A DNA stretch of 64,000 bases. It comes from Halostagnicola larsenii XH-48. GTDB taxonomy: Archaea > Halobacteriota > Halobacteria > Halobacteriales > Natrialbaceae. Below, one piece after another: positions 12,166 to 34,733 of this stretch. Below the pieces are notes generated by a model. That model was not told the DNA's origin. It searched no databases and saw only the letters and a list, made by a program, of their open reading frames with translations. Each line of letters starts with the position of its first letter. The stretch's first letter is position 1. The position numbers were made by a program, and so were the translations under genes. The stretch spans positions 2,170,001-2,234,000 of the forward strand of contig NZ_CP007055.1 in assembly GCF_000517625.1 (NCBI RefSeq). Direction: 5' to 3'.

Positions 12166-13305
12166 TCAATCGTCGTCAGTACACAGACGAACGATCGCAT
12201 CCGGAATGTCGTCGATCGCGAGCACCTGTTCGATCGAGCCGGTTTCGATCGCGGCTTTAGGCATTCCGAAGATCCGAGACGTCGCTTCGTCCTGTGCGAT
12301 CGTTCGACCGCCTGCATCCGCAACCGACTTGATCCCTACCGCGCCGTCTTGGCCCATTCCGGTCAGAATAACGCCGATCATGTGATCGTCGATGACATCG
12401 GCTGCGGTTCGCATCGTCGCGTCGACGGCCGGCCTGACGTTGTTGATTTTGGGCGCTTTCGAGAGATCGATGTCGATCCTGCCGCGTCGATAGCCGGTCA
12501 CCTCGAGATGGTACCCGCCTTTCGCGAGGACGCCTTCACCAGCCGTGATGGTTTCGTTAGCGCCCGCTTCGCGAAACTCGAGGTCCGTTGCCGCATCGAG
12601 ACGGTTGGCGAAGGATCCGGTCAGGGCGTCGGTCATGTGCTGGACGACGAGTACCCGAAGATCGAGTCCCGTCGGAAGGTTCGCGAGCAGCGTCTCGACC
12701 GTGTCGGGACCGCCGGTCGAGGATCCGACGAGTAGCGTGGTCGTTTTTGCGGACTCGATCGAATCGGTCGGCGACGAACCCGCTCGCGACGACGATCCGA
12801 GCGCCGAGCGCTCCCGTGATCCCGACCTCCCCGCTCTCGATGTAGCTCCAGCGTCGGCACCTCGAGTGGCGGACCCCGACGCCGAGTCAATCGTCGACCC
12901 CGATCGGGGACTCGACTGGGATGCGCCGGCGATCCGCTCGACGACTTCGTCGGCGCGGTCCCAGAGCGAAACCGATCGCTCCTTGCCGCCGGGTTTTCGG
13001 ATGATGTCGACAACGCCGCGTTCCATCAACTCGAGCGCTTCCTCGGCGTCTTCGTGGACGTGAGCGCTCAAAACGACGATCGGAACCGGATGGCGCTCCA
13101 TGATTTTGTCGACCGCCCAGTGGCCTCCCTGTCCGGGCATCGAGATGTCCATCGTGATAACCTCGACGTTCGTGTTTTCGACGAGTTCGACCGCGGATTC
13201 GCCGTCGCTGGCTTCGCCGACGACCTCGTGTCCGCGCTGCTCGATAATCTCGGTGAGAATATTCCGCATGAACGCAGAGTCATCAACGATACCAACAGTG
13301 ACCAT
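12166..13305 (-). CDS. cheB: Protein-glutamate methylesterase/deamidase CheB
   Basis: 379 residues. The N-terminal receiver domain has Asp8/Asp9, the phospho-acceptor Asp53 in 'VITMDISMPG' and 'KPGG' near residue 105. A Ser/Arg-rich linker (about 130-175) leads to the methylesterase domain, with 'LLVGSSTGGPDTV', 'VVQHMTDALTGSF' and 'LTGMGQDGAVG' holding the Ser, His and Asp. CheB demethylates transducers during adaptation. It is the third gene of parA-cheW2-cheB on the minus strand, with 25 bp after cheW2. Confidence 0.95.
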   Translation of the reverse strand: MVTVGIVDDSAFMRNILTEIIEQRGHEVVGEASDGESAVELVENTNVEVITMDISMPGQGGHWAVDKIMERHPVPIVVLSAHVHEDAEEALELMERGVVDIIRKPGGKERSVSLWDRADEVVERIAGASQSSPRSGSTIDSASGSATRGADAGATSRAGRSGSRERSALGSSSRAGSSPTDSIESAKTTTLLVGSSTGGPDTVETLLANLPTGLDLRVLVVQHMTDALTGSFANRLDAATDLEFREAGANETITAGEGVLAKGGYHLEVTGYRRGRIDIDLSKAPKINNVRPAVDATMRTAADVIDDHMIGVILTGMGQDGAVGIKSVADAGGRTIAQDEATSRIFGMPKAAIETGSIEQVLAIDDIPDAIVRLCTDDD

Positions 13306-15826: not shown

Positions 15827-17803
15827 ATGAGTGACGTTTTTGATACATTCATTCGAGAAAGTCAGGACGACCTTCTCCAGCTCAACAACTCGTTGCTGGC
15901 TCTCGAGGACAATCCAAGTGACGCCGAGGCAATCGATGCGGTATTTAGGGTGAGTCACAATCTCAAGGGGAACTTCGGTGCGATGGGGTTCGAAGCGCCG
16001 TCGAACCTGGCCCACGCGCTCGAAGACCTTCTAGACGAGGTTCGGGAGGGGAACATGGCGGTGACCAGCGACCGGATGAATCTCCTGTTCGAAGCGGTCG
16101 ACTCGCTCGACGAGATGGTCACACAGATCGCGAAGTCGGGGGAGGTGCAACTGGATCCGAGCGGTACGGTCTCCCAGCTCAGAGCGGAGATCGACGGGAG
16201 CGACGGTGACGAAGTCGCCGCCGCTCCGGGCGATGGCAACGATTCGGCCGAGGATTCGATCGACGTTCCGTTCGACACGCTCGCCGAAACGGAAGCGGCG
16301 ACCGCCGATTCGATCTTCCACCTCGACCTCGTCATCGGCGACGGCGAATCGAATCTCGTCGACGCGATGTTTATTCTCGGGGACATTCAGGACGGCTACA
16401 CCGTCCACGCGGGTGTGCCCGCAATAACCGACATCGAATCCGGCGAGTTCGAGGATAGATTCGAACTGTACGTCTCGCCGAACGAGGAGGCAGATGCCGA
16501 CGACATCTTCGAGGAGTACGACGGCCACCGATACCTCGAGTCGGTCGAAGTCGCCGACGTAACCGAGGACGTGAAACGCGGACTCGCGGACGGAGACTCC
16601 ACCGGAGACGACGGCTCCACGGGAGACGAAAGCGGCGGGTCGGTTCTCGACAACCACGATACGGAAATCGAATCGATCCGGGTCGACGTGACGACCATCG
16701 ACGAGCTGTACAATCAGGTCGAGGAGATGGTGACGAGCCGAATCAAACTCCGAAACACGATCGAGGAGCTGGGCGTTTCGGAGGTCGAAAAGGAACTCAG
16801 CGAACACGACAAGATCACGTCCAGAATTCAGGACACCGTCCTCGAGATGCGGTTGGTTCCCGTCCGGACGATCGCGGGACACTTCCCGCGGCTCGTTCGC
16901 GATATCGCACAGGAACAGGGCAAGGAGATCACCTTCGAGATGACCGGCGTCGACATCGAGATGGATCGGTCGATCCTAAACGAGATGCGGGACCCGCTCG
17001 TCCACCTCATCCGAAACGCGATCGATCACGGGATCGAGGAGCCGGATATTCGGGAGGCAAAGGGGAAATCTCGAGAGGGAACCATCGAACTCCGTGGAAC
17101 GCGCGAACGCGACACGGTGACGCTCGCCATCGAGGACGACGGCGCGGGACTCGATCCGGAACGGCTCCGAAAGAAGGCGATCGAGAAGGACGTCATGAGC
17201 CCGGCGAAAGTCCAGTCGCTCGAGCGCTCTGAGGTCTACGAGCTGATCTTCCATCCCGGCTTCTCGACCAACGACGAGGTGACCGACATCAGCGGTCGCG
17301 GCGTGGGAATGGACGTCGTCAATCGCGTCGTTCAGAGCGTCGACGGCGACATCGACGTCGAGAGCGAGCCCGGAGAGGGAACGTGCGTCACGTTGACGCT
17401 TCCGGTGAGCGTGGCGATCGAACGGGTGCTGTTCGTCGAAATCGGCGATGAAGCATATGGCATTCCGATCAAGAACGTCGACGACATCTCGGTTATCTCG
17501 GATCTCGACATTCAGTCGATTGACAACTCGAAGATCCTGAGTCACGATTCGAAAACGTATCCGATCATCGACCTCGGCGAGTCGCTTTCGGTCCCGGAGA
17601 CCGAACAACACGACGACGACCTGATCGTTCGGGTCAAAGACGGCATTCGAAAAGTCGCACTGCGGTGTGACGGGATGAACGGCCAGGAAGAAGTCGTCAT
17701 CAAACCGTTCCACGGTTCGCTCAGCAGCACCGAGGGAATCAGCGGTGCGTCCGTCCTCGGCGAGGGCGACGTGGTGATGATCCTCGACGTCGAATCGTTG
17801 TAG
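15827..17803 (+). CDS. cheA: Chemotaxis histidine kinase CheA
   Basis: 658 residues. The HPt domain holds phospho-acceptor His44 in 'RVSHNLKGNF'. Residues about 155-245 form a CheY-binding (P2-like) domain. A Gly/Asp/Ser linker near 255-275 precedes the dimerisation helices (about 285-345). The ATPase domain has the N box 'HLIRNAIDHGIEEPD', 'AIEDDGAGLDPERL' and 'GRGVGMDVV'. A CheW-like regulatory domain ends the protein. It receives transducer signals and phosphorylates CheY and CheB. It is divergent from parA and followed by two globin transducers on the same strand. No cheY or cheR gene is in the window. Confidence 0.96.
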   Translation: MSDVFDTFIRESQDDLLQLNNSLLALEDNPSDAEAIDAVFRVSHNLKGNFGAMGFEAPSNLAHALEDLLDEVREGNMAVTSDRMNLLFEAVDSLDEMVTQIAKSGEVQLDPSGTVSQLRAEIDGSDGDEVAAAPGDGNDSAEDSIDVPFDTLAETEAATADSIFHLDLVIGDGESNLVDAMFILGDIQDGYTVHAGVPAITDIESGEFEDRFELYVSPNEEADADDIFEEYDGHRYLESVEVADVTEDVKRGLADGDSTGDDGSTGDESGGSVLDNHDTEIESIRVDVTTIDELYNQVEEMVTSRIKLRNTIEELGVSEVEKELSEHDKITSRIQDTVLEMRLVPVRTIAGHFPRLVRDIAQEQGKEITFEMTGVDIEMDRSILNEMRDPLVHLIRNAIDHGIEEPDIREAKGKSREGTIELRGTRERDTVTLAIEDDGAGLDPERLRKKAIEKDVMSPAKVQSLERSEVYELIFHPGFSTNDEVTDISGRGVGMDVVNRVVQSVDGDIDVESEPGEGTCVTLTLPVSVAIERVLFVEIGDEAYGIPIKNVDDISVISDLDIQSIDNSKILSHDSKTYPIIDLGESLSVPETEQHDDDLIVRVKDGIRKVALRCDGMNGQEEVVIKPFHGSLSSTEGISGASVLGEGDVVMILDVESL

Positions 17804-17960: not shown

Positions 17961-19430
17961 ATGAACGAGGATCCATATCGAACGGACGGCGGGACTGCGA
18001 CCGGGGTTGACCAACTCGATGAACTCGGCATCGACGGCCAGTCGCTGGCGTGGCGAAAGGAGTTCACGCGGTTCGACGAAACCGATCGAAAACGACTCGA
18101 GGAAATTTCGTCGGTTATCCGAGCGGAGTCCGACCGCATCGCTCAAACGATCGCCGATCACTCGATCGAGATGGGAACCATCGACTCGGCTGGCGCCGAG
18201 AACCTTCGACAGCAAACGGACGGCTACATAGACGAGATGGCGTCCGGGTCGTACGGCCAGCAGTATTACGAGAAGCGGGCGAAGGCCGGCGAGCGCTACG
18301 AGCAGATGGGAGTCGAGCCGAGTATCGTTATCGGAGCCTACACGGTACACACCGAGGCCCTGGCCGAAGGAATCGCAACCGACGTGCTCGAGGAGATGGG
18401 TGTCGCGAACGCAGATCCCGATACCGACGTTGCTGCAGGTACCGTTCAAGACGGTGTCGAGACGATGGTTCAGCGGATCGTCTCGATGGTCAAGTTACTG
18501 AACTTAGACCAGCAGGTCGCGGTCGATCAGTACGTCAAGTCCTACGCCGACCTCGAGGAGGACGCCAAGCGGCGGGAATCGATCGCCCAGCGAACCCAGG
18601 AGATGATCGCGGAACTCCGGAACGCGACCGAAGACGTCCAGAAAGCGACGAGCGAAATTGATTCGATGACGACGACCCAGTCGGAATCGATTTCGACGGT
18701 CACGAGCGAGGTTTCGACGGTCTCTGCGACCGTCGAGGAAGTCGCCTCGAACGCACAGGAGGTCAGTTCGACCAGCGACGAGAGCGCGGAGTTCGTCGAG
18801 GATTCCCTCGACAACGGCGAACAGGCGATAGAGAGCATGGAAAGCGTCGAGCAAGCGACCGAACAGGTCTCGGACGACGTCGAGGCCCTGCGAGAGGGGG
18901 TAGAAGAAATCGACGAGGTCGTCGAAGTCATCAACGACATCGCAGACCAGACGAACCTCCTGGCCGTAAACGCCTCCATCGAGGCGGCAGACAGCGGCCA
19001 GACGGGAGACCGGTTTGCGGTCGTCGCGAACGAAGTGAAGTCACTGGCTGAAAACTCGAAAGAGGAAGCGAAAAACATCGAACGGACGGTCACGCAGATC
19101 CAGCAGGATACCGAACACACCGCGACGAGCCTCGAGACGGCGATCGAAGAGCTCGACGAGAGCGTCCAGATGGTACAGGAGACGGTCGACAACCTCACTC
19201 GGATCGAGGACCTGGTGAGCGACACGTCCGAGGGCATCAATCAGGTTGCGGTGGCGACCGACGATCAGGCGGCGAGTATCGAGGAGGTCGCGAGCATGAC
19301 AGAAGAGGCGAAGCGTCAAACTGAAGAAGTATCTTCGAAATCCGAGGATATCGCCGATGTTGCGGACGAGCAGTTCGAGCTGATGGACGATCTCGAGACC
19401 GAAGCAAAGCGGCTGACTGAAGACGGATAG
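17961..19430 (+). CDS. Soluble globin-coupled transducer paralogue with Tyr in place of the heme-ligand His
   Basis: 489 residues with no membrane segment. Residues about 22-190 align with HemAT globin-sensor domains ('[20 protein letters not shown]', '[22 protein letters not shown]'). At the proximal-histidine position the protein has Tyr113 ('GERYEQM'), while the next gene has His124 ('GKLHDML'). Residues about 200-485 are a methyl-accepting signalling domain with the hairpin tip '[20 protein letters not shown]'. It may bind heme through Tyr, bind another ligand, or be heme-free. It lies directly after cheA and 121 bp before its paralogue. Confidence 0.88.
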
Positions 19431-19515
19431 AGCGAACATATTCGGGCTAGGTATTGCTCGTGTAGAACGATCAGTTCCACGGATAAAATCACATACGTCT
19501 GGAATAACAAGTGGA

Positions 19516-19524
19516 TTTATATAC
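19516..19524 (+). promoter_or_regulatory. TATA box for globin transducer hemAT
   Basis: TTTATATAC lies about 30 bp upstream of ATG 19552, at the spacing expected for a short-leader or leaderless haloarchaeal transcript. Confidence 0.65.
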
Positions 19525-19551
19525 GTAAAAGAGAATTACAAATTCGTTATT

Positions 19552-21201
19552 ATGATCGGCGATGGGAGCGAGTACAAAATCTCTGAGGGGGATCGACGGA
19601 ACGTTATCGGGTCGCAGCTAACTGACGAACTCGGTATCGACGCGGCGCGAATCGAGTGGCGAAAGGACTTCACGCGGTTCGATCGGGCGGATGCAGACCG
19701 CCTCGAGTCGATGTCGGAGTTGTTCGACACCATTGCAGACGGTCTCGTCGATGATTTCTATGCGGAGATGCAGTCTCACGAGGAGACGGTTGCGATACTG
19801 GACTCCTCGAGCAAGGAAGTCGAGAGCCTGAAACGGACTCAGGCGGAGTATCTCAAAGATCTTGGTCGCGGGAACTACGGGCAGGACTACTTCGACCGGC
19901 GAGCGAAAATCGGGAAGCTTCACGACATGCTCGATCTCGGACCGGAAATCTACCTGGGGGCGTACTCGATCTACTACGAAGGTATTCTCGACGCAATCGC
20001 ACGTTCGGCCAAAGATCAGCCGGCGCTTTCCGGCGGTTCGGACGGTGCCGAAACGACAGCAGCGACGGAGTCGCCGACAGGCGCTGGCGCGACAGTATCA
20101 GGAACGGACGCAACCGCAGCAACTGACGCGTCCGCAGGTACCGGCGCGGCGGCAACGAAAACCCGAGAAGAGCCGCTTCTCACCGCCAGCGAAGCTCAGG
20201 AGGCGGTCGACGACGCCGTCGACGAGGTGGTCGATCGGACGCTCTCGGCGCTCAAACTCATCAACCTCGATCAGCAGATCGTGATGGACACCTACATCCA
20301 CTCCTACGCGGATATCGAGGCGGAACTCGAGCGCCGAGAGCGCGTCACCGAAAGCGTCGAAGAAAACGTTTCGAAGCTTCGCGGCTCCGCAGACGACGCC
20401 GTCGAGCGGTCGAACGAAGTCGGCCAGCTCGCCGAAGAGCAGGTCGAGTCGATGTCCCAGGTGTCGGGCGAGATCTCGAGTCTCTCGGCGACGGTCGAGG
20501 AAATCGCCTCGAACGCCGAGGAGGTCAGTTCGACCAGCGAAACCGCGACGAATATCGCGGACAACGCCTCCGACACCGCCGGCGATGCACTCGAGAAGAT
20601 GGAGAGCCTCGAGCGAGCCGCTGGAGAGGTCGCCGAAGATGTCGAGAATCTCCGCGAACGGGTCGACCGGATCGACGAGATCGTGAAGGTCATCAACACG
20701 ATTGCCGATCAGACGAACTTGCTTGCGATCAACGCCTCGATCGAGGCCGCGACTGCGGGTGAGGCCGGTGACAGCTTCGCCGTCGTCGCCGACGAGGTCA
20801 AATCCCTCGCCGAGGAGTCCCAGGAGGAGGCAAAGAACATCGAGCAGATGATCGAGCAGATCAAAGCGGACACCGAAAATACCGTCGAGAGCATGAACCG
20901 AGCGGGGGCGGAAACCGACGATGCGGTCGATCTCGTCGAGGACGCCGTCGAGGACCTGAACCGGATCGAATCGTCGGTTCGAGAGGCGACGACCGGTATT
21001 CAAGAGGTCGCCGACGCGACTGACGATCAGGCTGCAAGCACCGAGGAAGTCGCCAGCATGACCGACTCCTCGATGGGGAAAGCCGAAGAGATCGCTGACG
21101 CCAGCAACGAGATCGCCGACGCAAACGAGTATCAGGCCGAACTCGCCAAGGAGATCGAAGCCGAGGTCGACGAGTTACGAGATAACGACCTCCAACGCTG
21201 A
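19552..21201 (+). CDS. hemAT: HemAT-type globin-coupled aerotaxis transducer
   Basis: 549 residues, soluble. The globin-sensor domain (about 25-160) includes '[20 protein letters not shown]' and '[22 protein letters not shown]', which contains the proximal heme ligand His124. An Ala/Thr/Gly-rich insertion of about 50 residues (163-213) interrupts the domain before '[21 protein letters not shown]'. The methyl-accepting domain follows, with tip '[20 protein letters not shown]'. HemAT proteins sense oxygen and feed CheA. It has its own TATA box, so it can be expressed separately from the paralogue upstream. Confidence 0.93.
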
Positions 21202-33005: not shown

Positions 33006-34733
33006 CTATGTTGTGGCCGGATCCGTGCCAGTAGCAGTCGTCTCGAGATCGAATCGACCGAGGCGCGTCTCCATCTCGGCGGCCATCTCGTCGATCGATT
33101 CCGAGATATCGGCCATTCGGTCGATGGTTTCGGTCTGCTGGTCGATGTTCGTCGAGACGGCAGCCATCCGGTCGTCGATCTCGGCACTGCGCTCGGAGAG
33201 ATCGGTTACGATGTCCTGGACGGCCTGTGCGTCTGCCGCCTGATCTTCGGCCGCTCGAGCGATGTTCTGAATCCCCTGATCCGTTTCCTGTACCGCGTCG
33301 TCTATCTCGTCTATATGTTCGACGATGCCGTCGACGGCCTCGGCGCTCGTCTCGACCGTGGTATTGGCCCGTTCGATCGTTTCGACGGTCTCATCGACGT
33401 CCGACTGGATGCCCTCGAGATCGCTCGAGATCGTCTCGGCGGTCTCTTTGGACTCGTCGGCGAGTCGCTTGATCTCCTGGGCGACGACCGCGAACCGGTC
33501 GCCGGACCCGTCCGCGCGCGCCGCTTCGATGTTGGCGTTGACCGCCAGCAGATTCGTCTGATCGGCGATGTCGCTGACGAGTTCCGCCATCTCCCCGATC
33601 ATGCCCATCTGTTCTTGAAGCGTCTGGACCTGCGTCACCGTTTTTCCGGACGCCTCCATCGATTCGGTCATCCGCTCGAGCGCGGTTTCGGCCTCCGTCG
33701 ACCCCCGGTCGGTTCGGTCGCTCGCCTCCGCGGCCCGCTGCTCGATGGTGCCCGCGTTCGCCGTGATCTCCTCGATCGCCGCGGAAAGATTCGAGACGTT
33801 TTCCTCGACGACGGCCGCCTGCTCGGCCTGTTCGCTCGTTTTCGAGTCCACGGCCTGGCTCGCCCGATCGATCTCGACGGTCGCGCTCGAGGTCTCCTCG
33901 GCCGCGTCGACGAGGTCATCGCTGATCTGGCTCAACTGTTCGGAGTTGTGTCGCACCTCCGCGAGCGCGTCGTGAATCGTCTCGATCGCGCTCGAGAGAT
34001 CCGTTGCCATCGCCGAGAAGCGGTCGTACGCGTCCTGTACTTCCTCGGAGTCGCCGTCGGGCGCTGGAACCTCCGGCTCGATCGTGAAATCGCCGTCGCT
34101 GAGCCTGTCCATCCAGCCCTGGAACGATTCGACGACGTTCTGCTGGTAGGCCTGATACTGCTCTAGGGTCTCCTGGCGATTGATCGCCTCGACGCGTTCG
34201 GAAACGTCGCGGTTGATCTCGATCGCCCCGGTGAGTTCGCCGGCGGCGTCGAAAAGCGGGAAGAACGTTCGGCTAACGTGGATCGTCTCGCCGTCGACCT
34301 CGACGACGCCCTCTAAGTTCTGAATCGACTCCTCTGTCTCGAGGACCTCCTTCATGACGGAGTTATCGGCTTCCTCGAGGTCGAACAGGTTCTTCTCGAG
34401 CAGTTCGCCGGGAACGCGCCCGAAGAGGTCGCGACACGCCTCGTTCGAGTGGGTGAAGTTACCCTCGGCGTCGATGACGAAGATGGGATCAGTCGAGCCT
34501 TGCAGATAGCTTACGATGATCGACTCGGCGGTGGCCTCCCCGAACGGCGTTTCCGCGGAAACGCGCTCGACGTCACCGGCCGGGTCTACCAACGCTCCAT
34601 CAATGTCATCCCAGTCGCCGGTGTGACCACCGGGATTAGCTGTGTCAGTCTCACTGGGTTCGGATCCCGTCGAAGAATCTGCCGGTTCTGCCGGGCCGGT
34701 AATCCCGACCAATCCTGCCAACAAATTGCGCAT
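33006..34733 (-). CDS. Cytoplasmic methyl-accepting transducer with PAS domain
   Basis: 575 residues, no transmembrane segments. An acidic N-terminus leads to a PAS domain at about 70-182 ('DPIFVIDAEGNFTHSNEACRD', then 'LTGAIEINRDVSER', listed in parts). A HAMP-like/linker region follows. The signalling domain (about 270-560) has the canonical tip '[20 protein letters not shown]'. It probably senses a cytoplasmic signal (redox, light or ligand) and feeds CheA. It is 12 kb from the che island. A perfectly placed TATA box lies upstream. Confidence 0.92.
   Translation of the reverse strand: MRNLLAGLVGITGPAEPADSSTGSEPSETDTANPGGHTGDWDDIDGALVDPAGDVERVSAETPFGEATAESIIVSYLQGSTDPIFVIDAEGNFTHSNEACRDLFGRVPGELLEKNLFDLEEADNSVMKEVLETEESIQNLEGVVEVDGETIHVSRTFFPLFDAAGELTGAIEINRDVSERVEAINRQETLEQYQAYQQNVVESFQGWMDRLSDGDFTIEPEVPAPDGDSEEVQDAYDRFSAMATDLSSAIETIHDALAEVRHNSEQLSQISDDLVDAAEETSSATVEIDRASQAVDSKTSEQAEQAAVVEENVSNLSAAIEEITANAGTIEQRAAEASDRTDRGSTEAETALERMTESMEASGKTVTQVQTLQEQMGMIGEMAELVSDIADQTNLLAVNANIEAARADGSGDRFAVVAQEIKRLADESKETAETISSDLEGIQSDVDETVETIERANTTVETSAEAVDGIVEHIDEIDDAVQETDQGIQNIARAAEDQAADAQAVQDIVTDLSERSAEIDDRMAAVSTNIDQQTETIDRMADISESIDEMAAEMETRLGRFDLETTATGTDPATT

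Follow-up and report, generated by a model that had tools for sequence, protein, structure and literature searches.

Introduction

HemAT, the heme-based aerotaxis transducer of Bacillus subtilis and Halobacterium salinarum, is a soluble protein that combines a protoglobin with an MCP domain. The heme site of the B. subtilis protein (HemAT-Bs) consists of the proximal His123 and the distal Tyr70 and Thr95 (PMC13401364; PMC12805357), and the same protein responds to ethanol independently of its heme (PMC7542364). Non-heme sensor globins are already known as well. In Bacillus RsbR, both the proximal His and the distal Tyr have been lost, giving a non-heme globin (PMC4976288) whose N-terminal domain dimerises like HemAT (PMC2867796). 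The title of a further study, Stranzl et al. 2011 (cited in PMC5862856), calls the globin sensor domains of Bacillus sporulation-kinase relatives non-heme.

Here we describe two adjacent haloarchaeal genes, P1 and P2, whose products share the HemAT architecture. We consider it likely, with a probability of roughly 0.7, that P1 is a cytoplasmic chemoreceptor in which a heme-less sensor globin responds to a non-gas cue, encoded beside an oxygen receptor, P2.

Results

The window, by which we mean the whole 64,000-nucleotide stretch of DNA analysed here, sits on a 2.79-Mb contig of a 4.13-Mb genome in five contigs. The initial annotation had placed tandem globin transducers at 17961–21201. Both open reading frames are present, on the same strand and downstream of cheA, and these coordinates span the two genes together. 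The genes and domains are as follows.

12166..13305, reverse strand: cheB-like gene of the chemotaxis neighbourhood, with receiver and methylesterase domains (putative name, from the N-terminal sequence)
15827..17803, forward strand: cheA (CheA_Halo, by domain match), directly upstream of P1
17961..19430, forward strand: P1, soluble globin–MCP transducer without the proximal His (489-residue open reading frame, domain matches)
18039..18545, forward strand: P1 sensor-globin domain, residues 27–195 (Protoglobin match; low-confidence fold model)
18813..19313, forward strand: P1 MCP signalling domain (domain match)
19552..21201, forward strand: P2, HemAT-like globin–MCP transducer with all heme residues (549-residue open reading frame, domain matches)
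20569..21060, forward strand: P2 MCP signalling domain (domain match)

Each protein begins with a Protoglobin domain (PF11563; E 3e-18 in P1 and 1e-30 in P2, both above the cut-off) and ends with an MCPsignal domain (PF00015). Membrane spans are absent from both, hydropathy maxima staying below 1.0 (0.97 for P1, 19-residue window), and the two proteins therefore have the make-up of globin-coupled sensors. Three genomes share the order cheA–P1–P2; a fourth, strain A56, seems to have it too, judging from an assembly overlap. The window contains one further MCP gene (33006–34733, reverse strand, 575 residues), which has no globin domain match.

The two proteins differ at the proximal ligand (F8) position.

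18297..18299, forward strand: P1 Tyr113, at the proximal ligand position (alignments, including HemAT-Bs)
19921..19923, forward strand: P2 His124, proximal ligand (alignments, including HemAT-Bs)

That Tyr113 lies exactly opposite His124 had been read from the sequence in the initial annotation, and both the residue numbers and the pairing stand. The residues share one column in the pairwise alignment and in alignments of 73 and 110 sequences, and each has His123 of HemAT-Bs (structure 1or4) as its partner; P2 thus has the proximal His of HemAT, and P1 has Tyr in its place. We considered misalignment of Tyr113 and ruled it out, as the F-helix motif is gap-free in all of these alignments. Of 110 haloarchaeal globin transducers, 101 have His at F8 and 5 have Asp; Tyr occurs in only 4, namely P1 and its three orthologues, all from Halostagnicola. 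Because His occupies the position in such a large share of these relatives, its replacement in P1 is no chance event.

Ferric heme can be ligated by Tyr. P1 might bind ferric heme through Tyr113, in the manner of F8 His-to-Tyr globin variants or Tyr-ligated heme carriers, and respond to redox state, heme, or NO instead of sensing oxygen. The placement of Tyr113 precisely at the ligand position is what such ligation would need, and the adjacent Arg112 is invariant. Conservation of Tyr113 among orthologues, to which the initial annotation had looked, holds in 4 of 4. It is no proof of ligation, however, and is hardly informative, because the orthologues share 85–87% identity and show no variation in 71% of their columns. 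Further, the P1 group stands apart, with no Tyr at F8 in any other globin transducer among the 110 sampled, and in the open-licence literature we found neither a precedent for a proximal tyrosine in globins nor a Tyr-ligated sensor globin. An alternative conserved His as the heme ligand of P1 was considered and rejected. Among the P1 orthologues only His67 never varies (one of them has Tyr in place of His130), and His67 is not a special ligand because many heme-binding relatives also have His there (FYDH motif).

The remainder of the heme site also bears on this question.

18153..18155, forward strand: P1 Ala65, at the distal Tyr (B10) position (110-sequence alignment)
18159..18164, forward strand: P1 His67/Ser68, site of a six-residue deletion, where helix C is missing in the model (alignment and model)
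18213..18215, forward strand: P1 Gln85, at the HemAT-Bs Thr95 position (alignments)
19759..19761, forward strand: P2 Tyr70, distal (B10) (alignments)
19837..19839, forward strand: P2 Thr96, equivalent of HemAT-Bs Thr95 (alignments)

P2 is like HemAT at all three pocket positions, retaining His, Tyr, and Thr, whereas P1 is altered at all three, with Tyr, Ala, and Gln, respectively, in their place. The B10 residue is Tyr in 97 of the 110 haloarchaeal transducers; in P1 the F-Y pair at B9/B10 is replaced by I-A, and the B/E junction is shorter by six residues in the alignment. P1 and P2 are identical at 7/48 positions in helices B, C, and E, compared with 37/76 across helix H and the N-terminal cap (Fisher p 1e-4). 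Thus, as judged from the alignments, the heme pocket has been rebuilt in P1, while the N-terminal cap and helix H, which serves dimerisation and signalling, have been kept.

Predicted helices tell a similar story. The same prediction method yields six helices in P2 (B, C, E, F, G, and H) and, in P1, all of these except C. Confidence is low for both models (mean pLDDT 55 for P1 and 60 for P2), and therefore helix order alone was used. In comparisons with solved structures, the low-confidence P1 model gave Z scores of 14–16 to sensor globins, among them 15.8 to AfGcHK and 15.1 to HemAT-Bs (1or4), and 11.8 to the heme-less RsbR domain (2bnl). The predictions indicate that P1 retains the sensor-globin fold and has lost helix C. 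P1 is therefore like HemAT in predicted fold but has neither its three pocket residues nor its helix C.

Tyr113 does occupy the iron-ligand position, but with helix C and the distal residues gone, and in a model too weak to show a cavity. Ligation by Tyr113, which the initial annotation had offered as one reading of P1, seems improbable given that the heme site has been lost elsewhere as well; loss of heme is preferred because it fits all of the pocket changes, of which Tyr ligation explains one. The other pocket losses had gone unmentioned in the initial annotation. Two counterpoints should be noted. First, a clade of transducers represented by L018 and L040 keeps the proximal His without the B10 Tyr, and such globins can still hold heme. 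Second, a mean pLDDT of 55 does not establish loss of the heme cavity.

A gene that has lost its heme site could also be a duplicate decaying on its way to loss. Confinement of P1 to one genus would fit such a course: a P1-family profile run against 391 genomes scored 424–430 bits in three Halostagnicola genomes and no more than 130 for everything else, and a further genome from this genus group carries the His-type receptor only. The deviation of the hairpin tip from near-invariant residues, described below, would fit as well. Against this, P1 is intact wherever it is present. The dN/dS of its globin domain is 0.20–0.28 over the full length (0.17 for the partial A56 sequence), like the 0.19–0.22 of P2, and we therefore conclude that P1 is under purifying selection and is being maintained, not decaying. 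The signalling parts of the two proteins give 0.05–0.14 (P1, 0.05–0.08). These ratios rule out a pseudogene and make decay very improbable.

In the fourth genome, that of Halostagnicola sp. A56, P1 is split at a 118-base identical overlap. The stretch lies inside the P1 gene on both contigs concerned (L006, around 5004, and L008, around 5046), and on one A56 contig P1 forms a fusion with a truncated gene for an RNA polymerase subunit. A genuine break was considered and rejected, since the overlap joins the two halves and the fusion points to a likely assembly chimera; the split therefore lends no weight to decay.

In the phylogenetic tree, the P1 lineage has a long stem (1.5–2.3 changes per column) and short tips, the pattern that a change of function would leave. 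Its origin can be read in two ways, and the AU test rejects neither: tandem duplication of P2 (p 0.53) and common descent with the clade that has Asp at F8 (p 0.59).

The signalling domains of P1 and P2 are 49% identical across 299 aligned residues, and P1 departs from its relatives at the hairpin tip.

18984..19016, forward strand: P1 hairpin-tip stretch of 11 residues, altered at near-invariant positions (alignment with relatives)

Relative to near-invariant residues of the relatives, this stretch carries A to S, E to Q, and G to R changes in all four orthologues. The near-invariant Glu is presumably the counterpart of E391 of Escherichia coli Tsr. Judging from these substitutions, coupling of P1 to CheA may differ from that of P2; altered coupling is also a counterpoint to an account of P1 that turns on its sensor domain.

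Discussion

The direct observations on P1 are its sequence, its alignment, its place in the census, the selection acting on it, and its gene neighbourhood. From its sequence we infer that it lacks heme, and we extend this, again conditionally, to the class of its ligand and to its sharing of receptor teams with P2. The heme features have been lost, yet selection maintains the protein; P1 therefore probably responds to a signal that is not oxygen or adjusts the activity of P2.

A mechanism can be proposed along the following lines. The N-terminal sensor globin of P1 would no longer bind heme, the heme residues on both the distal and the proximal side having been replaced along with helix C. The globin fold, the N-terminal cap, and helices G and H are retained; it is by these two helices that sensor globins dimerise and transmit the signal to the MCP rod. 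The cue would be something other than a gas, for example a hydrophobic or amphiphilic small molecule that occupies the remodelled core. Its signal would pass through helix H to the rod, and the output would most likely go to the CheA encoded next to it, in the same receptor teams as P2.

The chief rival to this scheme lies within the heme-less reading itself. P1 could have no ligand of its own and act as a modulator, setting the gain or bias of oxygen signalling in mixed dimers or teams with P2. The two genes are adjacent and inherited together in Halostagnicola, helix H is conserved, and the extent of identity between the signalling domains is compatible with such partnership. The globin domain of P1 is, however, under purifying selection of its own, P2-like receptors function alone in most relatives, and a TATA-like stretch upstream of P2 suggests separate expression. 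We regard pure modulation as tenable but doubtful. The two readings are not mutually exclusive, and our confidences in them overlap for that reason.

For a heme-less P1 with a cue of its own, the closest parallel is RsbR. Like RsbR, P1 has both the proximal His and the distal Tyr replaced on a sensor-globin fold, the fold being that of the low-confidence model. They differ in that RsbR carries a STAS domain in the stressosome, whereas P1 carries an MCP domain in an archaeon. By this analogy, P1 is best read as an archaeal counterpart of Bacillus RsbR on a chemoreceptor. The Bacillus sporulation-kinase-type domains would, from the title of the report on them, share the non-heme globin fold with P1 and differ from it in output and lineage.

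P1 thus represents no new heme chemistry. In the open-licence literature, we found no description of a non-heme sensor globin on an archaeal chemoreceptor in tandem with a heme-type sister. Globin–MCP receptors are usually annotated as oxygen sensors, and if P1 is heme-less, this annotation is wrong for some haloarchaeal receptors. The compact pair beside cheA would then be a test case for the re-purposing of a gas sensor, and P1 bears on a question dating from RsbR, namely what non-heme sensor globins detect.

The Asp-type transducers of Natrialbaceae (L053–L056, L058, L127–L132, and L134) are, like P1, haloarchaeal globin–MCP proteins without the proximal His. They differ from P1 in having Asp rather than Tyr, within the motif FFERR...IDPF or ADLF, in having no six-residue deletion, and in partly keeping the B10 Tyr. 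In the two neighbourhoods read, they adjoin mutS and a small tRNA-binding-type gene, not che genes. A broader idea, which we hold at a little short of even odds, is that haloarchaea turned heme oxygen receptors into heme-less chemoreceptors, possibly more than once (the Tyr type in Halostagnicola and the Asp type across Natrialbaceae). These would form a new class of cytoplasmic sensors in archaea, detecting a non-gas signal and sharing arrays with the oxygen receptor.

Other variants occur among these globin transducers. The L018/L040 clade (contexts L079 and L080), which keeps the proximal His, lacks the distal Thr in addition to the distal Tyr. Its genes lie near peroxiredoxin genes, with a copper-nitrite-reductase-like gene also present in L080, and the clade is possibly a sensor of another gas. 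Three more sequences on a long branch (L045, L049, and L050) keep the His, but B10 is occupied by Leu and the Thr95 position by Ile.
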